A stretch of 12,385 nucleotides of DNA from contig CAMWMO010000003.1 of NCBI GenBank assembly GCA_947175305.1, positions 1-12,385 on the forward strand, in the 5' to 3' direction. Numbering within the stretch: position 1 is the first letter of the stretch; every line of letters starts with the position of its first letter. Under the pieces are notes generated by a model. That model made no database searches. It saw only the letters and a program-made list of their open reading frames with translations, and was not told the DNA's origin. The position numbers were made by a program, and so were the translations under genes. The stretch comes from an uncultured Lachnospiraceae bacterium. Lineage in GTDB: Bacteria > Bacillota > Clostridia > Lachnospirales > Lachnospiraceae. Shown here piece by piece: positions 3,575-12,385 of the stretch.

Positions 3575-3668
3575 ACATAAGCCGCCTCAAAATGCTAGAC
3601 ACAAAATACTTGAGTTTTCGCAGTTTTATCCATGCCCCAGCACATCCACAATCCGGTTAAAAATTTTT

Positions 3669-3723: not shown

Positions 3724-3792
3724 TCAAAATAATCTCTCTGCAATCACATCTGTGCCCTTTTTCGCGGCGGCCATTTCAGGGGCAGCTATCAT
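3724..3792 (-). CDS. Possible 22-codon ORF overlapping the end of the exporter gene
   Basis: A 22-codon frame starts at an ATG inside the last codons of the exporter gene, preceded by GAGG about four bases upstream. It ends in MAAAKKGTDVIAERLF followed by TGA. Its codons (GCC GCC GCG, GGC) are GC-richer than those of the exporter and closer to the clp genes. I do not recognise it. It may be the surviving 3' end of an older chromosomal gene truncated when the accessory operon arrived, a coupled small peptide, or chance. It is listed because it marks the compositional boundary, not because translation is established. Confidence 0.2.
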   Translation of the reverse strand: MIAAPEMAAAKKGTDVIAERLF

Positions 3793-5413
3793 TCAGCCTC
3801 ACTACTTTGTTCACCTCAGACAGCACCGCTTGTCTATGGGCAATCACAATTACCGTCTTATCTCTGAGTCTTGTATTCAGTAAAGCATTAATTTGTTGCT
3901 CTGAATCGGTATCTGAACTAGAAGTAACCTCATCAAACAGTACAATCGGCCGGTCATGGATTAAAGCTCTTGCCAGCGCAATCTTCTGTTTCTGTCCTCC
4001 GGAAAGCATCATTCCATTTGTCCCCACAGAATAATCCAGTGAAACTTCCTTAATAAATTCCAACAATCCGCTGTCCCGACACGCATCAAAAATCTGCTCA
4101 TCATCTATCTGTCGGTATAAACAAATATTATTGCGAATCGTATCGTGAAAAAGATAAATGTCCTGACTCACCACCGAAATTAGGTCTCTGTATTCTGACA
4201 ACGGCATATTAGATATGTCTTTTCCGTCCAGTAAAATCTGCCCCCGATTAGGCGTATACATTCTAAGCAGCAGATCAATCACCGTGCTTTTCCCGGAACC
4301 GTTTTTCCCAATCAATGCCGTCTTACTCCCCCTCGGAATTAGAAAACTAATATTTTCTAAAACAGGCTTACCTTCCTCATAGGCAAAAGACACCTGCCGG
4401 AATTCTATATCTCCAGGCTGTGGCACGCTCCTATATTCTGCGCCCCTGTCCTCTTCCGCCTCATCCATAAATTCATAGTACCGCTTAGCCGAAGGAATGA
4501 CTCCGGACATATAATAACCAATATTTAAGATTGCGGAAATAGGTCTTGTCACATAAGCGCTATATGTAATAAAAGCAAAAACACTTCCGATAGACAAACT
4601 CAGATCAAACACCATATCAGCACCAATAATATAAATCATTGTCGTCAGAAACTGTACCAGAACGACATCCGCCATACTATTCCACTGCATGAGCATATTC
4701 ATTTCCTTTTGACTGCTGATTACCCTATTTTGTCTGTCTTCAAACTCTTTTTGCTTATCCTCGAAGATGCCAAAAAGTTTAACTTCTCTAACTCCCCCTA
4801 TTGTATCGCCAAACCAACCGGCATATGCTTGTCTGTCGCTGATATAAATATCCATTGCTTTTTTACGTCGCTTTGCAAAATGCCTTACGGCTACATATTT
4901 TACCGGAATAAAGGCAAGCACCAGAATCGTCATGCGCCAATCTATAATAAATAGACCAATTATTCCACCCATTATGCCAAAAATCTGTGTTATTACAAAA
5001 AAAGTACTGTCATCTGCTATGGAAGCCATATTATCTATATCTGTTTGTATATTGTTCATAATTTCCGAATAATTATGAACAGAGAAATATTCAGCTTTCA
5101 TCCGCATCAGATGTAAATATGACTCTTCCGACAATTTATATTGCAACTTCGTTGCAATTTCTATCCTCTTTTTTTCTTTCAGCAATTCAATACACGAACA
5201 GAGAAGAAATAAAAAGAAAGAACATAGAACCGTGGTGATTAATAGTTTCTTATCCCCACCTATAAATCCATCGTCCATAATTCTTCTGTTTAACAGCGGG
5301 ATATATAAATTTAATGCTGTAGAAATCAGCAAACATCCAATAATAACTATTATTGTTTTCCTATAATCTTTTAACAAGGCAAACATTTTTCTGATCACTT
5401 CTTTGGTACTCAT
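3776..5413 (-). CDS. ABC exporter, fused transmembrane and ATPase domains (type I)
   Basis: This half-transporter would dimerise in the membrane to export a substrate; in this context a modified peptide is plausible but not shown. From the ATG at 5413 it is 545 residues. Six hydrophobic segments lie at about 20-40, 58-76, 137-155, 158-176, 247-267 and 275-297. The nucleotide-binding domain has Walker A GKNGSGKST at 369-377, a Q-loop at Gln417, signature LSGGQ at 470-474, Walker B ending Asp494-Glu495 and H-loop His526. There is no N-terminal C39 peptidase domain, so it does not itself cleave a leader. An upstream in-frame TTG at 5455 is possible, but AAAGGA at 5425-5430 favours 5413. It ends only 19 residues after the H-loop, shorter than usual for the family. 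It is last in the operon, 29 nt after the response regulator gene. Confidence 0.9.
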   Translation of the reverse strand: MSTKEVIRKMFALLKDYRKTIIVIIGCLLISTALNLYIPLLNRRIMDDGFIGGDKKLLITTVLCSFFLFLLCSCIELLKEKKRIEIATKLQYKLSEESYLHLMRMKAEYFSVHNYSEIMNNIQTDIDNMASIADDSTFFVITQIFGIMGGIIGLFIIDWRMTILVLAFIPVKYVAVRHFAKRRKKAMDIYISDRQAYAGWFGDTIGGVREVKLFGIFEDKQKEFEDRQNRVISSQKEMNMLMQWNSMADVVLVQFLTTMIYIIGADMVFDLSLSIGSVFAFITYSAYVTRPISAILNIGYYMSGVIPSAKRYYEFMDEAEEDRGAEYRSVPQPGDIEFRQVSFAYEEGKPVLENISFLIPRGSKTALIGKNGSGKSTVIDLLLRMYTPNRGQILLDGKDISNMPLSEYRDLISVVSQDIYLFHDTIRNNICLYRQIDDEQIFDACRDSGLLEFIKEVSLDYSVGTNGMMLSGGQKQKIALARALIHDRPIVLFDEVTSSSDTDSEQQINALLNTRLRDKTVIVIAHRQAVLSEVNKVVRLNDSCP

Positions 5414-5442
5414 AGCAGGATGTGTCCTTTCTATAACCCATT

Positions 5443-5808
5443 TTATTCCCGACAAGCATACTCTAACACTTTATCCTTTACCTGCTCTATTTTGATCTTA
5501 TCCAGACAAAATGTAGCACCTCGTTGTACTGCTTCACTCTCCCAATCATCCATTTCATGGCAGGACATAACAAGAAACGGTATTTGCAGTTCAGACACTT
5601 TTACTGCATCCAGCAATTCCAACGCAGATCCGTCCTGCAAATCCAAATCGGAACAAATAAGGAGATACCTCTCCTTATCAATTTTTTCTTTTGCCTCTGT
5701 CAAGGAAGCCGCTGTATCTGTATCATAACCACGATGCTGAAGAAGTTTTTGTAAACTGTAAGCATAGTCTATACAATCGTCAACAATCAGTATTTTCTTC
5801 ATGCTCAT
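5443..5808 (-). CDS. Stand-alone receiver-domain response regulator
   Basis: This 121-residue protein is a single CheY-like receiver domain with no DNA-binding or enzymatic output domain. The acidic pair Asp10-Asp11, the phospho-acceptor Asp54 (in CSDLDLQDG), Ser82 and the conserved Lys104 are all present, so phosphorylation is likely possible. No histidine kinase is encoded in the window, so its partner must be elsewhere. A longer frame extends to 5883, but the start at 5808 (MSMKKILIVDD) is chosen because GGAG lies eight bases upstream and avoids overlap with the preceding ATPase gene. It sits between an ABC ATPase gene and an ABC exporter gene in the same operon, which suggests control of transport or of the modification pathway by protein contact. 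That role is inference. Confidence 0.85.
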   Translation of the reverse strand: MSMKKILIVDDCIDYAYSLQKLLQHRGYDTDTAASLTEAKEKIDKERYLLICSDLDLQDGSALELLDAVKVSELQIPFLVMSCHEMDDWESEAVQRGATFCLDKIKIEQVKDKVLEYACRE

Positions 5809-5834
5809 TACTAATTCTCCGTCATGCAACCGAA

Positions 5835-6512
5835 TCATCTGGTAGCAATTTTCCCATCTTTCACCGTAATCACACGGCTGCATCCTTTGGTTAAAGCCAT
5901 ATTGTGAGTAACAAAAAAGATGGTTTTCCCCATATGCTCAGAAAAATACTGTAGCAGTCCCACCACTATCTGTGTATTTTTACTGTCCAGATTTCCTGTC
6001 GGTTCATCCGCCAGAATGATATCCGGCTCGGAAAGGAGCGCCCTCAAAATCGCCGCTCTCTGCTGCTCTCCACCGGACAGCTGCATGGGAAAGGCATTCT
6101 TTTTTTCTTCCAACTTAAGCATCGCCAAAAATTTATCGATCAGATCTTCCTTGATCTCCTTCTTTTTTAGTTGGAAAGGCAGAATGATATTTTCATACAC
6201 CGTCAACTCATTGATTAAATTATAGTCTTGAAAAATAAAACCAACATTCTTACGTCGGTACAACGTCCGCTGCTTGTCATCATATTCGGAGATCACATTT
6301 CCGGCTACCGTGATTGTCCCGCTGCTTACACTGTCCATTCCTCCAAGCAGATTAAGGAGCGTAGTCTTGCCGCTTCCGGAATCCCCCACAACGCCCACAA
6401 ATTCTCCCTTCTTGATAGAAAGGCTGACACCATTAAGAACCGGAATCTTTCCCGAACTGCTCTCGTAAACTTTACTCACGTCCTTCACTTCTACTACAAT
6501 ATCATTTTTCAT
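5835..6512 (-). CDS. ABC transporter ATPase, MacB/LolD-like
   Basis: This 225-residue ATPase would power the FtsX-type permease encoded immediately before it. It has Walker A GDSGSGKT, a Q-loop in FIFQDYNLI, the signature LSGGEQQRA, Walker B IILADEPTGNLD and an H-loop in FFVTHN. The ADEPTGNLD wording and short length are typical of the MacB/LolD/FtsE-like branch that pairs with FtsX-fold permeases and acts by mechanotransmission rather than classic channel transport. The ATG follows the permease stop by 20 nt, with AAAGGA upstream. In peptide-antibiotic clusters such pairs often give self-protection or move lipid-anchored or peptide substrates; the substrate here is unknown. Confidence 0.95.
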   Translation of the reverse strand: MKNDIVVEVKDVSKVYESSSGKIPVLNGVSLSIKKGEFVGVVGDSGSGKTTLLNLLGGMDSVSSGTITVAGNVISEYDDKQRTLYRRKNVGFIFQDYNLINELTVYENIILPFQLKKKEIKEDLIDKFLAMLKLEEKKNAFPMQLSGGEQQRAAILRALLSEPDIILADEPTGNLDSKNTQIVVGLLQYFSEHMGKTIFFVTHNMALTKGCSRVITVKDGKIATR

Positions 6513-6532
6513 TTTTGTTTTCCTTTCTCATA

Positions 6533-9007
6533 CTATTCTCTACAGGAGCGTATCCTGTCTAAGAATTTCTGTTTCCGATCCATCATCCGATACGCTGTGA
6601 TTGGCACAAGAATCGCCGCTGCACAGCCCAACACAGCAAAGAGAAGATCAATCCGCAAATAAAAATGATAGGTGATATACGGTTCCTGTAGAACCATACA
6701 GATCAGCGCATAAACGCCAAAAGCCGCCAATATACAGCCGGATACAAATCCGCCCGCCATATAAAGCATCCCCTCCTTCGACAGATTCCTCTCGATCTCA
6801 CCCTGCTCGATTCCCATACTTTCCAGCACTGCCAGTTCCCGGCTTCTGCTGTAAACACTCTGCGCCATACAGTTGACAAAATTTAATACGCCCATAGAGA
6901 GTAGGATCAAGCTCAGCCCAAAACCAGCCAGCTTCAACCCGTTTATGTATCTATCCGTTTCGCCAGCCACCGTCTTCGCCGAGCGGTAGCCAAGACCGTT
7001 TCCCAGTTCTCCCAGATTTTCCGCAAGCATATCATCCCATACCTCATGGTAATCTTCCGCTACATCAAAGGCATACAGATAGTAGTCATCTCGCTTTTCC
7101 TTCTCACGCCACTCTTCTCTGGGAAGATAGCAGCTACCTGACCACCATGCCCCTGATGGGAATGCCAGGGACATTGGTAATTCCTCAACAACTGCCATTA
7201 CTGTGTAGATGTTCTCCACTCCACTTTCAAAGGGAATCGTCACTTGATCCCCAGGATTGTAAATTGACACCTTTTCCTCATTATTATCACTGTAAATCGG
7301 GCCCATCAACACATAGTTTCCTGTGTGGAACTTTTCCAAGTCGATCGTCCCTCTGATAGGTTCGAGCTTTTGTAAGAACATATCATCGATTCCATAAACA
7401 TTCGTCCACATCTCAGTTGACGTATCATAGGGGTTTTCTCCAAAAACATCCACTAAGACTTCCCATACCTCATCCGAAGGCAAAAGTGCGATATGGGATT
7501 TGCTTCCTCCGCCTTCCGTCTTTATACCAGGAAGCTTCTGATATGCAGCAATCTCTTCTTTTGTAGTCCGTTCATAAAATCGTGTATTCACATTTGCACC
7601 CGAAATCAGAGCCTCTTTTGCCAGAATATAGTCCGCATTCAGTTCATGATTCACATAATCCTCCGTGTCAAACCCCGCTGTTATCGCATAAAAGACATTG
7701 GCAAGAAGAATGCTTACGGCTAAGGAAATCCATACTTTTACAGCTTTCCTTTTATCGCACTTAAACTGCCTTATGGCGATCTTTTTCAGGCAGTCTCCGT
7801 CATCTGCGACTTTCACTTGTTTTAATCCCCCAATATATCTTTTCATCTCTAGGGGGGAGGCGCTCTTCGCAATCCGTATAGCCTTTCTTTCACTTACCAA
7901 TACAGTTACGTACGAAAAAACGAAGGCCCAAACAAAAATAAGGATATTTCTACTTCGTTCTATCTGCACAGTCGCGAAGCCGCTCAGAATGCCCGGCAAA
8001 ACGGCTCCAGAAAAAATATACCCCGCAAGCAACGCTGGAATCACACCCGCCAAAAACAGGAGCCGATTCTGCCTGCGAATAAGTCGTTTGATTTCACGTT
8101 TATTGATACCATTGGTGGACAGCTTGCCATAATATCTGGCGTCTCTAGACACGGAAATCTGGAATATATTGGAAATAAACAGATATCCAAGCCACATAAC
8201 CAGAATAACCATTGCAAATATCGTCGCCCACATGTCCATGCCCAGACTCTGAGACAGAGAGAAGTCGTTTAAGACAATCTGCCCCTCCTCCATATCAATG
8301 TCTTCTTCCATAACTAGCAATGAAGCCTCTTTTCTTACATTTAAATGGGAAGAAAACATCACACCCGCCAGCCTGTCGGCATACCCTTTCGGATTGATTC
8401 CGCTCTGTTCTAACCGCCCGCATGCTTCTCGGTAAAAATCGTCCGACACAACTATCTCATGATCCAACTGCAGTGATGATCTTTTATAAACCCCTGTCAC
8501 CGTAAACGTATCCGTATAAGTAAGCTGCTCATCCTGAGGATAGAAATACGTTATTTCTATCGACATCCCTTCACTGTATGTTAGCCCACGCTCTCGCAGA
8601 TACTGGTCGGAAACTACGATTTCATGAATCTTCTCCGGCATCCGTCCTTCTACCGGGAAAACTTTCATCCACTGCGCCATCTGATCCTCGTGATTAAAAA
8701 AATCGATATAACCTACCCCGGAAGGCTCCAATGTCCTCCCACAGAAAATTCCTCTGCTCACCTCCGCTGCTCGCGGATTCACACAAATACGATCATACTC
8801 TTCCTGCGTCACATGAATTGTCGCATCCACCAGCATGGGCGCTGACCTTCGCATCATCTCCTCTGCTGCATCCTTGATAGAAAATAACGCAGAAAACACC
8901 ATCACAAACAGCGCCGTCGTAAAAAACACCGCTGCAATCACGCAGAAACTCTTCCCTTTTTCCCGCAGTATTCTTCTGACTGGTATCCTATTCAATACAT
9001 AGTTCAA
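6533..9007 (-). CDS. Large FtsX/MacB-type ABC permease with two FtsX modules
   Basis: This 824-residue membrane protein is the permease partner of the following ATPase. Hydrophobic segments lie near 22-44, 262-284, 314-342, 355-372, 426-444, 690-714, 748-773 and 787-806. This gives two repeats of one helix, a large extracytoplasmic domain (about 45-260 and 445-690) and three helices, the usual duplicated FtsX layout. The segment RSRELAVLESMGIEQGEI at about 721-738 is the conserved cytoplasmic FtsX motif that contacts the ATPase. The start is TTG at 9005-9007, backed by GGGGAGGGG eight bases upstream; the next in-frame Met is at residue 36, inside the first helix. Its DNA is visibly GC-richer than the flanking genes (36 of 60 bases G+C at 6961-7020), suggesting a different origin within the operon. 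Confidence 0.92.
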   Translation of the reverse strand: MNYVLNRIPVRRILREKGKSFCVIAAVFFTTALFVMVFSALFSIKDAAEEMMRRSAPMLVDATIHVTQEEYDRICVNPRAAEVSRGIFCGRTLEPSGVGYIDFFNHEDQMAQWMKVFPVEGRMPEKIHEIVVSDQYLRERGLTYSEGMSIEITYFYPQDEQLTYTDTFTVTGVYKRSSLQLDHEIVVSDDFYREACGRLEQSGINPKGYADRLAGVMFSSHLNVRKEASLLVMEEDIDMEEGQIVLNDFSLSQSLGMDMWATIFAMVILVMWLGYLFISNIFQISVSRDARYYGKLSTNGINKREIKRLIRRQNRLLFLAGVIPALLAGYIFSGAVLPGILSGFATVQIERSRNILIFVWAFVFSYVTVLVSERKAIRIAKSASPLEMKRYIGGLKQVKVADDGDCLKKIAIRQFKCDKRKAVKVWISLAVSILLANVFYAITAGFDTEDYVNHELNADYILAKEALISGANVNTRFYERTTKEEIAAYQKLPGIKTEGGGSKSHIALLPSDEVWEVLVDVFGENPYDTSTEMWTNVYGIDDMFLQKLEPIRGTIDLEKFHTGNYVLMGPIYSDNNEEKVSIYNPGDQVTIPFESGVENIYTVMAVVEELPMSLAFPSGAWWSGSCYLPREEWREKEKRDDYYLYAFDVAEDYHEVWDDMLAENLGELGNGLGYRSAKTVAGETDRYINGLKLAGFGLSLILLSMGVLNFVNCMAQSVYSRSRELAVLESMGIEQGEIERNLSKEGMLYMAGGFVSGCILAAFGVYALICMVLQEPYITYHFYLRIDLLFAVLGCAAAILVPITAYRMMDRKQKFLDRIRSCRE

Positions 9008-9013
9008 CGTATG

Positions 9014-9022
9014 CCCCTCCCC
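9014..9022 (-). promoter_or_regulatory. Strong ribosome binding site supporting the TTG start of the permease gene
   Basis: On the minus strand GGGGAGGGG lies seven bases before TTG. No in-frame ATG exists until residue 36, which is within the first membrane helix, so this site decides the start. Confidence 0.75.
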
Positions 9023-9024
9023 TT

Positions 9025-10031
9025 TTATGGTATATAGTTATAGATTCTGTATTTTATATTCTCCACCATACATTGAATATCTGATGGTGTATGAAAATCA
9101 CCAGTATTATTCATATTAATGTATTTACAGCGCACTCCCTCGCAGTACATCTTATAAGTGCATTCACGGCATTCTCCGCAACCATCGTGCTCATATAGTT
9201 TTCGCAACTCCGCCTCATCTATATGGATATCTGCGACATTCCCAAGCAGAAACGATTTATTACCTGCCACCATCTCACACGGATACACATCTCCGTTTTC
9301 CATGATATTAAAGGTAGTAATTCCCCCTGAGCATTGCCCTTTTTTCTTCATCTCCAATCGGTCAATCATGGCAATCTGTATGTTTTTTCCATAATATTTT
9401 TCCTTGATCTTAATCAACTCGTTTTCCAGAATCTGAAACCTTTCTTCCGTCCATTCAGGATCTTCTAGAGCAACAGCCGGAACAATACAACGAAATCCCT
9501 GCATGACCAGATTGTCTACACCGCTTGCCAAATCCCCTACGTTGTTAGCCGTCACTGTCATTCTGATTCTCAGTTTACTTTTGTCTAATCCCGATTGTTC
9601 AATATTCTGCATTACTTTCTGATACGAACCATGTCCGTTAGGAAAAACTCTGTTTAAATCATGAGCTTCCCTGCATCCGTCTATGCTGACTGACAACTCA
9701 GTAAGATGATTCATCAGATATTCGGCTTTTTCCTTATTTAGAAGCAGACCATTTGTCGTCAAAAGAAAAAAAGCCTTCTATCCCGAAAAATTTGTTCCAA
9801 ACGCTCCACATATTCCTTGATCCTATTATATTCCAACAGAGGTTCTCCTCCATGAAAACTAATGAGAATGTCTTTTTCTTTATATCGGTCTGCTTTTCCC
9901 TTAATAAAAGCAACCATTGTCTCTATATCCATAACCTTCTCATCCGCAATTCTATCTACATTATTTTTCTCATAACAGTAATTGCAGGCAAGGTTACATT
10001 TGTTTGTCATCCAAATCGTAAAAGAAGGCAT
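9025..10031 (-). CDS. Radical SAM/SPASM peptide-modifying enzyme, frame-shifted at 9765-9771
   Basis: This gene encodes an iron-sulfur radical SAM enzyme in two frames. The first part (90 codons, 10031-9759) has the cluster motif Cys12-x3-Cys16-x2-Cys19 and HGGEPL at 60-65, then stops at TGA. The second part continues from CTT at 9765 with TTNG, SVSIDG and a SPASM-type C-terminus with cysteines at merged positions 234, 252, 285, 288, 291, 297, 302 and 321. A single -1 shift at the heptamer TTTTTTC (9765-9771) gives one 335-residue protein of normal family layout. Neither half alone would be an active enzyme by family knowledge. The ATG abuts the TAG of the preceding radical SAM gene, so translation is coupled. 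There is no N-terminal recognition domain. It may be an intact programmed-frameshift gene, a phase-variable gene, a pseudogene or a sequencing artefact. Confidence 0.85.
9765..9771 (-). other. U UUU UUC slippery heptamer at the frame junction
   Basis: The zero frame of the first part reads AGG CTT TTT TTC TTT TGA. The last T of CTT plus TTT TTC form X XXY YYZ in the exact register needed for -1 slippage, after which the ribosome would read CTT TTG ACG ACA (LLTT) and continue. The zero-frame stop comes two codons after the site. AGAAGG lies only about one base upstream, too close for a typical stimulatory Shine-Dalgarno, and I see no obvious downstream stem-loop. The same seven-T run is also a likely place for replication slippage or sequencing error. 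Confidence 0.5.
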
Positions 10032-11237
10032 CTAATCACCCCATATCACTTCTTCCAGAAGTTTTTTCCGCTCATCGCAAAATTTCATCTTCGAATTTTC
10101 ATTATCAAAAAACATAAAATAATCAATAATACATCCCCAGCAGAAACTTTTCACCTTACACTTCGCACAGGACTCTATCTTTTCTGACAGGGTATCCTCG
10201 AATTTACAATATCCGCTACAGGCCAGTCTCCCATCTATAAGTAACTGTAAGTCCTTCGTTTCTAATTCATTTAGATGCTTTAGCGAAAACTCAGGATTAA
10301 CAGCCGCAACGGGACAGGGATATATTTTCCCGTCATATTGAACGTATAACGATTTAACTGCAGCATCACATGTACCTATTATCGGCATTTTTTTTCTGAT
10401 TTCCGGCACATCCTCTATCGACATCTTATGAGAATTATCATGCCCGCTCTCTAATATGTTTTCATTTTCCTTTCCACGTCCTATCGAAAAAAAGGAACGA
10501 ATCATCGGTTTCACACCCAAATTTTCACACATCTTTTTAAAAGCATCCTGCTCTTTTCTATTTATGTCTGTAACTACAAAGGATATGGAAATATCGGTCA
10601 ATCCCTTCTCTTTCAGCATACCAACCACTTCTATCGCATGTTCAAATACGCCTTCACCCCGTATGCAGTTACAAGTCTCCGGAGTTGCTGCATCTAAACT
10701 AATAGAAACATTGTTAAAATTTCTTACAATTCTATCTATGTTATCACGATTCACCAGTGTCACATTACTCATCAAGCCTTTAGACCCGTTAAAATGTTCT
10801 CCAAGATAATCTGCAATATCCCAAAAATCAGGATGAATCAGCGGTTCTCCTCCGGTAAGAGTGATGCTGCCAATGTTTCTGTTTGCATCAATAATTTCTT
10901 TGATATCCTTAGACGAGAGTTGATCTGTCTCTTCCGGCCCTGCTGAAAAGCCGCAATGTAAACACCGTAAATTACATCTATTTGTAATAGCAATCAATAA
11001 TGATTTCAATTTATCTTTTTCATTTTTTTCAATATCATCTTTAACCAAAATACCGATACGGTACAGCGTTTCAATCTTTTTTGCATACTTCTCATCAATA
11101 GTATCTGTATGTAATACCCTACACAAATCGTTATATTCCTGCTCGCTTATCCGAACCCATTTACCATTTCGTTGATTTCCGAGAACCACTTTATTTTTGT
11201 TTTTCATAATAATTGAATTTGTTGACAATTGATACAT
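10032..11237 (-). CDS. Radical SAM/SPASM maturase with N-terminal RRE-like region
   Basis: This 401-residue protein is a radical SAM enzyme likely to modify a peptide. Residues 1-68 (beta-rich, with VVLGNQRNGKWVRIS then helices and LYRIGILV) resemble a PqqD-like RiPP recognition element, which would bind the leader of a precursor. The radical SAM core has Cys88-x3-Cys92-x2-Cys95, TGGEPL at 128-133 and VSISLDAA near 177-184. The C-terminal SPASM-type region carries Cys290, 308, 340, 344, 357, 360, 366, 369 and 387, enough for auxiliary iron-sulfur clusters. GGAGG at 11243-11247 is five bases before the ATG at 11237; an ATG at 11249 overlaps that site and has no good site of its own. It follows the protease gene at once and touches the next radical SAM gene. 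The family members it resembles form thioether or carbon-carbon links, but the reaction here is unknown. Confidence 0.9.
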   Translation of the reverse strand: MYQLSTNSIIMKNKNKVVLGNQRNGKWVRISEQEYNDLCRVLHTDTIDEKYAKKIETLYRIGILVKDDIEKNEKDKLKSLLIAITNRCNLRCLHCGFSAGPEETDQLSSKDIKEIIDANRNIGSITLTGGEPLIHPDFWDIADYLGEHFNGSKGLMSNVTLVNRDNIDRIVRNFNNVSISLDAATPETCNCIRGEGVFEHAIEVVGMLKEKGLTDISISFVVTDINRKEQDAFKKMCENLGVKPMIRSFFSIGRGKENENILESGHDNSHKMSIEDVPEIRKKMPIIGTCDAAVKSLYVQYDGKIYPCPVAAVNPEFSLKHLNELETKDLQLLIDGRLACSGYCKFEDTLSEKIESCAKCKVKSFCWGCIIDYFMFFDNENSKMKFCDERKKLLEEVIWGD

Positions 11238-11242
11238 TGTTA

Positions 11243-11247
11243 CCTCC
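11243..11247 (-). promoter_or_regulatory. Ribosome binding site choosing the 11237 start
   Basis: GGAGG on the minus strand precedes the ATG at 11235-11237 by five bases. The alternative in-frame ATG at 11247-11249 shares a base with this site, so the shorter protein beginning MYQLSTNS is favoured by four residues. Confidence 0.65.
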
Positions 11248-11252
11248 ATTCT

Positions 11253-12218
11253 TTAGTACCCCGTGAATTTCAAAAAGCTATTCTGATTCCTGAAATACTC
11301 CATAAAAATCTCTGCATCCTCTTCTATTACTATTATGTTTTTTGCAATAAGTTCTCTCAATATTTTTTGCACCTGATTAGCTGTCAATAATAAGCCATTC
11401 GCAAACCAATCCCTCTCCTCTGCCCATTTTTTTGCCGATATTCCGGTCACACATTCCACACACTGCATCAGTTCACGTTGATCAATTAATTTTGAATAAT
11501 TAACTTTACCTGTCCCCGTAGACGGTACATCTATTCCTCCTCTTAGTAAATCTGTTTTCTCCCACATACTTTTACTTGCATGTTTATTTACTTTATTTAT
11601 TTCGAGTCTTTGATGTTTTATATCTTCTGCATTAATCACGATTGCTGTAAATAATGCCGTCGCCTTACTGTTTCCTCCAAAAAATTCATACTCATTTTCA
11701 TACCAGGGTACCAATATTGGTTCAATGTCGCACACTGCTTTACTTCCCCGATACCAATATATTGTACCATCAAAAAAACTGCTTCCCACAACCGTCACCA
11801 CATTGCCAAAGCTATCAAATAATGTTTCCTTACCGCTGTTAGCGGAAGCAGAAACTAAGATAATCCCCAATTCATTCAATTGATGACATAATTTCCTAAG
11901 CAATTCTGAATCCGATAACGAAACGCTTAAACTCATATTAATAATATCTACCCGCATATCCATCATATAAGTCAACGCCTCTACGATCTGCCGCTCCGTT
12001 GCCCTCAACTCTCTATGAAAAATTTTTGCCGACACAAATTCTAATTCCAACTTTGTCATTCTCTCTATAATACTTGCGCACATAGATCCATGACCGTTTA
12101 TATCGGCATTTCTATACGCATCATCTTCTATTCTGCAAAAATTTTCCTGCGTTACTTTTCCTTTTATCACGCACTGATTGATTCCACTATCAATCATTCC
12201 CACTCTAATTTTTCTCAT
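11253..12218 (-). CDS. Subtilisin-like (S8) serine protease, cytoplasmic, with unusual nucleophile motif
   Basis: This 321-residue protein has the S8 order of catalytic residues: Asp10 in GMIDSGIN, His43 in NGHGS, the oxyanion Asn127 in SASANSG and Ser184 in GGNSKATA. There is no signal peptide, no prodomain and no membrane segment, so it probably acts inside the cell. The nucleophile motif GNSKATA departs from the usual GTSMAxP, and the core is short. About 120 residues after the serine form a C-terminal region I do not recognise, with a helical LTANQVQKILRELI stretch near 277-290 that could be a small helical or winged domain. As the first gene before two radical SAM genes it is a candidate leader peptidase for a RiPP. 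The ATG at 12218 has only a weak GTGGA upstream. Confidence 0.85.
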   Translation of the reverse strand: MRKIRVGMIDSGINQCVIKGKVTQENFCRIEDDAYRNADINGHGSMCASIIERMTKLELEFVSAKIFHRELRATERQIVEALTYMMDMRVDIINMSLSVSLSDSELLRKLCHQLNELGIILVSASANSGKETLFDSFGNVVTVVGSSFFDGTIYWYRGSKAVCDIEPILVPWYENEYEFFGGNSKATALFTAIVINAEDIKHQRLEINKVNKHASKSMWEKTDLLRGGIDVPSTGTGKVNYSKLIDQRELMQCVECVTGISAKKWAEERDWFANGLLLTANQVQKILRELIAKNIIVIEEDAEIFMEYFRNQNSFLKFTGY

Positions 12219-12239
12219 TTTATTTATAATCCACGCATC

Positions 12240-12309
12240 TTACATGGACAAATGCCTGTATGTTTTGAAATCTATTCTTCCGATTTCTTAACAGGCATTA
12301 TCCATGTAA
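12240..12309 (-). promoter_or_regulatory. Long imperfect hairpin in the operon leader
   Basis: Outer arms of 20 and 19 nt (12240-12259 and 12291-12309) pair almost completely through TTACATGGA/TCCATGTAA and ATGCCTGT/ACAGGCAT, with a small asymmetric bulge. A further GAAATC/GATTTC pair (12267-12272 and 12282-12287) closes the apical loop. No U-tract follows on either strand, so it is not a simple terminator. It ends 21 nt before the protease start codon and would form nearly the whole 5' leader. It may affect mRNA stability, protein or RNA binding, or start-site access, or be an operator as DNA. Confidence 0.65.
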
Positions 12310-12317
12310 AATATATT

Positions 12318-12345
12318 CTTATAAAACAAGACACCTGACTACCAA
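12318..12345 (-). promoter_or_regulatory. Candidate promoter of the accessory operon
   Basis: On the minus strand TTGGTA (12340-12345, 4 of 6 matches to the -35 consensus) and TATAAG (12318-12323, 5 of 6 to the -10) are 16 nt apart. Initiation would fall near 12311, just before the long hairpin. Surrounding DNA is AT-rich, so chance matches are possible, and transcription could instead arrive from genes beyond the right edge. Confidence 0.4.
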
Positions 12346-12385
12346 ACCTGTTAATTTTGCTTTACTATTTGTTCTGGTTATACTT

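Follow-up and report, generated by a model that had tools for sequence, protein, structure and literature searches.

The window analysed here is a stretch of 12,385 nucleotides (nt) from an uncultured Lachnospiraceae bacterium (contig CAMWMO010000003.1 of GCA_947175305.1, an assembly of 467 contigs that is 66% complete), and its last position, 12385, is the end of the contig. Seven minus-strand genes (12218-3776) form an operon, which in our judgement most probably constitutes the greater part of an operon for a ribosomally synthesised and post-translationally modified peptide (RiPP). Its family has no name in NCBIfam or Pfam, its proposed logic resembles that of the Qhp system, and it lies in a Lachnospirales-type genome upstream of same-strand genes that we take, by their sequences, to be tig, clpP and clpX. 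In order, the operon encodes an S8 subtilisin-like protease, two radical S-adenosylmethionine (SAM) proteins called rSAM1 and rSAM2 below, an FtsX-type permease, an FtsE-type ATPase, a receiver-only protein and an MsbA-type exporter. With the longest reading frames, the gaps along the operon are 3, 0, 17 and 20 nt, followed by overlaps. Peptide-maturing enzymes, a protease and an exporter, the combination that marks a RiPP operon, are present in a single operon. A preliminary description, made from the sequence alone, had proposed a RiPP-like operon of seven closely spaced genes on one strand. That interpretation is supported; the observation is partly confirmed, as layout, spacing and families agree but rSAM2 is not one intact frame, being split at 9773-9757. 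As for the span, which had been drawn to 12310, no operon gene lies in 12219-12312, and a long RNA hairpin (12237-12312, minus strand) is found there instead, just upstream of the S8 gene. Besides the broken frame, the likeness of the protease to QhpE, its carrier-like domain and the precursor motif had been missed.

The S8 protease (11253-12218, 321 aa) is a subtilase by its match to PF00082 (43.6 bits, cut-off 21.8). Its closest curated model is QhpE (NF049966), at 88.6 bits against a cut-off of 165; the copies of two related loci, L122 and L128, score 101.2 and 90.6 bits with this model, and that of L015 is unmatched at E 1e-25. Comparison with the PDB gave weak subtilisin matches only. The catalytic triad (D10, H43, S184) is invariant in the 16 aligned copies, and the oxyanion residue N127 is found in 15 of them. 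The protein starts directly in its catalytic domain, with the DSG motif at residues 10-12, which leaves no room for a signal peptide; judging from the sequence, the protease is cytoplasmic, as the preliminary description had it. Residues 232-321 (11256-11525) form a putative acyl-carrier-protein-like domain, in which the phosphopantetheine-type Ser of the DSL motif is absent; by eye, the alignment has Tyr, Phe, Ala and other residues there. The structure model of this domain is of low confidence, and Foldseek alone would not reveal a carrier fold.

The first radical SAM/SPASM protein, rSAM1 (10032-11249, 405 aa, or 401 from the second ATG), has the peptide maturases CteB (5wgg) and SkfB as its best solved relatives. 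Its best NCBIfam score is with the mycofactocin maturase, and that score, like all others, is far below the cut-offs. An N-terminal domain of the RiPP recognition element (RRE) type had been ascribed to it. The alignment of the rSAM1 family profile with CteB starts at profile position 18 and the superposition of the structure model on CteB covers residues 7-401, so that both take in the N-terminus, but PF05402 finds no match in the window protein. We examined the order of strands and helices at the N-terminus, together with the CteB alignment, for a PqqD-like domain, and regard the RRE-like domain as supported, though short of proof.

The second radical SAM gene, rSAM2 (10031-9025), consists of two frames, 9759-10031 with the CxxxCxxC motif and 9025-9762 with seven conserved Cys of the SPASM region. 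The frame changes inside a T-rich run (9757-9773), which contains either an assembly error or a true frameshift. In the 15 relatives aligned, one of them within a fusion, the frame is uninterrupted (one further radical SAM open reading frame (ORF) of L017, at 156-1532, was left out of the alignment), and all ten Cys conserved among them are retained across the two window pieces. Both pieces are PapB-like. In NCBIfam, the PapB ranthipeptide maturase (NF047865, cut-off 340 bits) scores best, with 55.1 and 120.8 bits for the two pieces and 195.8, 211.5, 196.9, 218.8 and 228.8 bits for five intact relatives, which agrees with the earlier view of a second SPASM enzyme. The two radical SAM proteins might have clustered with non-peptide enzymes, which would have spoken against a RiPP; instead, rSAM2 is nearest to PapB and the nearest solved structures to rSAM1 are those of CteB and SkfB. 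The disrupted frame means that this copy may be dead, and a decaying or dead remnant, with rSAM2 frameshifted and its precursor gone, is a rather unlikely alternative for the window copy; the family would still be a RiPP system. The split gene itself, and the occurrence of the operon in just one of the 77 genomes of the genus searched, favour such decay. Against it, the other genes are all open over their full length, the S8 triad and the ten rSAM2 Cys are intact, and the break falls in a T-run, a common site of assembly errors.

Downstream of rSAM2, an FtsX-type ATP-binding cassette (ABC) permease (6533-9007, 824 aa, PF02687 in two stretches) and an FtsE/LolD/DarD-type ATPase (5835-6512, 225 aa, with NCBIfam and Pfam matches) make up the efflux pair already proposed, and self-protection or efflux is the probable role of the permease. 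A stand-alone response-regulator receiver domain follows (5443-5883, 146 aa in the longest frame); it has no output domain, and a start closer to 5808 is plausible. The last gene encodes the MsbA-type ABC exporter (3776-5455, 559 aa). Its family matches are to ABC membrane and ATPase families, with no peptidase among them, which bears out the description of an exporter without a peptidase of its own.

Related loci were sought by an rSAM1 family search (120 of 651 matches listed; 27 sequences including the query aligned, 83 to 29% identical), an alignment-based scan of genome and viral collections, tblastn of plasmids and phages, and whole-genome searches. At E 1e-30, rSAM1 was found in one of 98 near-relative genomes and one of the 77 of the genus, in both cases the source genome itself, and in 7 of 397 and 7 of 396 genomes of two family samples, with three matches common to both. 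Three plasmids bear the gene set; tblastn of phages returned no related locus at E 1e-20. We studied 18 distinct loci (L015-L020, L095, L122-L130, L162 and L164), leaving out L161 and L163 as duplicates of L017 and L018, and L021, L022, L023, L024 and L026 as weaker rSAM1 relatives without this type of rSAM2. All 18 have an S8 homologue, which in L123 is recognised solely by comparison with other S8 copies, in L020 lies about 7.5 kb away and in L127 is a short form of 212 aa. An MsbA-type exporter or its ATPase half is likewise present in all 18, L016, L020, L095 and L162 having the ATPase half next to another ORF. The rSAM2 gene is found in 17, L127 being without it. At a single locus (L126, 8087-10348), rSAM1 and rSAM2 are fused in one frame of 753 aa, and four loci (L017, 10001-12447; L019, 6593-10137; L128; L130) have two rSAM1 copies for one rSAM2. 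The operon of L095 is almost identical to that of L016, so that these two are not independent; L095 comes from a viral collection, although its operon nearly matches this Blautia genome locus. On two Paraclostridium sordellii plasmids (L128, 3193-5992; L130, 1510-4328), the operon adjoins genes for a LytTR regulator, a histidine kinase, AgrB and a cyclic-lactone autoinducer, agr-type genes that hint at quorum control.

Genes of the FtsX/FtsE type differ among the loci, most of which have such pairs. Pairwise distances are correlated among rSAM1, rSAM2 and S8 (rho 0.37, 0.53 and 0.41; 2, 0 and 2 of 2000 permutations as high) in a set of 16 taxa from which L095, L126 and L127 were excluded. In contrast, distances of the FtsE-like ATPase show no clear correlation (rho -0.03, 0.22 and 0.18; 1157, 158 and 289 of 2000 permutations), a loose control since each locus was represented by its best FtsE-like ORF, possibly the exporter ATPase where an FtsE gene is absent. 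On this basis, rSAM1, rSAM2, S8 and the precursor appear to form the core of the module, to which the FtsX/FtsE pair seems an exchangeable addition.

Homologous operons lacking any conserved small ORF would have spoken against a RiPP, yet one or more small ORFs of 42-82 aa, rich in Cys and Asp and containing CxxDC, are present at each of the 17 loci with both radical SAM genes, at the fused locus directly after the fusion gene. The motif goes with rSAM2: L127 has a 50-aa small ORF in a similar place, with two Cys and no CxxDC. Blautia-type loci carry several CxxDC precursor genes, with eight tandem-type copies in L016, and their peptides have C-D-P-x-D, i.e. C-X3-D, at the first Cys. Among 25 tabulated peptides, 24 contain CxxDC and 21 a D-V-x-x-Q-like box, which the pattern used did not match in L015, L017, L019 and L128. 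As an unfiltered scan also picked up unrelated CxxDC or CxxNC ORFs, most of which lack a ribosome-binding site, we preferred a control with a strict filter that required a ribosome-binding site, a length of 30-99 aa and a position outside larger ORFs. The small ORFs that pass number 42 at 16 family loci, 15 of them with CxxDC, and 318 at 90 other radical SAM loci, none of them with the motif. A profile built from eight peptides without that of L122 found the L122 peptide as sole match in its 5.4-Mb genome (E 2.8e-9), and missed the more distant L017 peptide. Run against public proteins, the first precursor profile had 249 matches with E no higher than 10; the Blautia type dominates the 21 that were read among the 120 listed. 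One precursor of this type, P0195, is listed with 1000 public contigs, and given how common such precursors are in public contigs, their products may matter in gut communities.

Could the system belong to a radical SAM peptide class that has already been described, such as the PapB ranthipeptides, CcpM, CXXX-repeat, SCIFF or the StsB/AlbA sactipeptides? The best NCBIfam matches are to models of these classes, and one precursor scores 15.9 bits against TIGR04118 (cut-off 35). All of these scores remain under the curated cut-offs, however, and none of ten precursors searched against NCBIfam and Pfam reaches any cut-off; moreover, we know of no described class in which two radical SAM genes are paired with a QhpE-like S8 gene. 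We regard membership of a described class as improbable. The preliminary description had not recognised the set as a named class, and this holds within NCBIfam, Pfam and the literature searched. That literature gave no named match and no occurrence of CDPDDC, FDVEVQ or CDPSDC, nor of ranthipeptide, Blautia and radical SAM together, although the radical SAM RiPP atlas of Clark and Seyedsayamdost may describe the family.

The resemblance to qhp raises another possibility: as in the maturation of quinohemoprotein amine dehydrogenase, the system would cross-link a subunit of an enzyme retained by the cell and secrete no peptide. S8 is nearest to QhpE, the rSAM2 of L018 matches the QhpD model at 142.7 bits, and an exporter is common to the window operon and qhp. 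Yet the small ORFs are of 42-82 aa, with as many as eight tandem-type copies at one locus, a family scan that took in part of the ORFs of the loci revealed no amine dehydrogenase subunit, and the FtsX/FtsE-type pairs at most loci suit peptide self-protection better. Such a role is very unlikely in our view.

In the window itself, a scan for small ORFs with CxxDC or CxxNC found none, and the contig stops at 12385; the earlier statement that the precursor is not visible was right. The region 12219-12385 folds at -43.5 kcal/mol (z -5.6; none of 200 shuffles as good) into the hairpin of 12237-12312, and the 73 nt between hairpin and contig end hold two possible gene tails that are too short to judge. 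Among 14 related loci compared (L016, L019, L020 and L095 excluded), a hairpin (z <= -2.5, mononucleotide shuffles) follows the precursor gene in nine and is not seen in five, including L015. The N-terminal extension of a relative's S8 record, P0246, would fit translation through the same hairpin DNA. As a hairpin follows the precursor gene in nine of the 14 relatives, and that of the window is placed between the S8 start and the end of the contig, the window precursor is expected in the last 73 nt or beyond: we predict that it ends within or just past them, and the gene probably lies just past the contig end. Decay of the window copy might also be read from the failure of the precursor profiles to match anything in the source genome; against this, the contig terminates where the precursor is expected, and the genome is 66% complete.

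Several observations weigh against a functional RiPP operon with the precursor proposed here. The rSAM2 frame of the window is disrupted, and two precursor profiles and the contig-end DNA found no precursor and no overlapping contig in the 66%-complete source genome. The nearest locus with DNA, L015 (Lachnotalea glycerini; rSAM1 identity 40%), has neither the D-V-x-x-Q box, by the pattern used, nor a post-precursor hairpin. The association of CxxDC with rSAM2 hangs on one negative locus, L127. The strict filter scores 12 of the 16 family loci, missing L020, L122, L125 and L127, and its control loci come from other taxa and other radical SAM families, so that composition is not fully matched. 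Lastly, rSAM2, S8 and a CxxDC ORF are all missing at L021 and L022, the loci of two weaker but full-length rSAM1 relatives; counting these loci, rSAM2 is present in 17 of 20 loci and S8 in 18 of 20.

The chromosomal site appears to be a variable one. In the congeners G018 and G022 (Tig identity 97 and 93%), the match to the window stops at 3598 and the operon is absent, as it is at this site in G025 and G034. In another congener, G037 (L153, 2326-10593), a CcpM-type cluster occupies the same site upstream of tig. Its radical SAM protein scores 538.3 bits with TIGR04068, above the cut-off of 500, its exporter is 75% identical to that of the window, and it has a stand-alone carrier-related protein. 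Taken together, the absence of the operon from congeners and the CcpM-type cluster in G037 suggest that the site upstream of tig swaps peptide clusters.

As for how a RiPP operon of this type might work, the precedents of PapB (PMC9413430) and Qhp (PMC7876137) suggest leader binding, thioether formation, a second modification, cleavage by S8, export and self-protection. The RRE-like domain of rSAM1 would bind, via its leader, a short, acidic, Cys-rich precursor in which a D-V-x-x-Q box usually precedes the CxxDC core. With no RRE-like domain of its own, the PapB-like rSAM2 would install one or more Cys-to-Asp thioethers at CxxDC or CX3D, and rSAM1 would make a second modification elsewhere in the core. 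By the PapB likeness and the CxxDC and CX3D motifs, the thioethers would be of the ranthipeptide kind, joining Cys to a non-alpha carbon. Leader removal would then fall to the cytoplasmic QhpE-like subtilase, perhaps with its C-terminal carrier-like domain as the docking module, and the product, which might act as a bacteriocin or a signal, would be secreted through the MsbA-type exporter. FtsX/FtsE would most likely give the producer protection, and a regulatory role would fall to the receiver protein. It is tempting to go further and propose a new RiPP class, in which two differently tasked radical SAM enzymes share one leader-recognition domain to form a CxxDC Cys-Asp thioether and a second linkage, and a subtilase carries a Ser-less carrier-like docking domain; we hold this extension tentatively, as a possibility somewhat short of even. 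The loci offer a testable pairing of precursors and enzymes in a radical SAM peptide family without a curated name, spread over Lachnospiraceae, Peptostreptococcaceae plasmids and Paenibacillus. They also constitute a natural two-enzyme system, once fused, for studying how two radical SAM maturases divide one substrate.

Among known systems, the sactipeptide maturases StsB, AlbA and SkfB are among the best sequence and fold matches of rSAM1, which scores far under their cut-offs. CteB, the SCIFF maturase (5wgg), is by sequence the closest solved relative of rSAM1 (family profile) and also of rSAM2 (L015), and bears an RRE in the rSAM1 alignment; the precursor differs, however, and the scores are well under the SCIFF maturase cut-off. 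The CcpM cluster of L153 (TIGR04068/TIGR04066/TIGR04069-like) has in common with the window operon the site upstream of tig and the exporter, and uses a carrier-related protein, but contains one radical SAM protein, of another family, and no S8 among the ORFs scanned. PapA/PapB, the freyrasin-type ranthipeptide system, provides the best match for rSAM2; PapB joins Cys to Asp in CX3D and accepts CXnD with n = 0-6 (PMC9413430), and the precursors found here have C-X2-D motifs, with C-X3-D in the Blautia-type peptides. Unlike in that system, the five intact rSAM2 relatives score 196-229 bits against 340, and a second radical SAM protein and S8 are encoded alongside. The closest parallel in logic is Qhp (QhpC/QhpD/QhpE/QhpF), involved in quinohemoprotein amine dehydrogenase maturation. 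In that system (PMC7876137), Cys-Asp/Glu thioethers are the work of QhpD, the leader is cleaved off in the cytoplasm by QhpE, which turns over once, and QhpF serves as the efflux ABC transporter; a putative thioether maturase, a cytoplasmic QhpE-type subtilase and an efflux ABC transporter are likewise found in one operon here. In contrast to Qhp, there are two radical SAM proteins and peptide ORFs of 42-82 aa rather than an enzyme subunit, and, in addition to scoring below the QhpE cut-off, the window S8 has an extra C-terminal carrier-like domain past the 219 positions of the QhpE model. The family would thus carry the Qhp logic, from radical cross-link to cytoplasmic subtilase and ABC exporter, over from an enzyme subunit to small secreted peptides.

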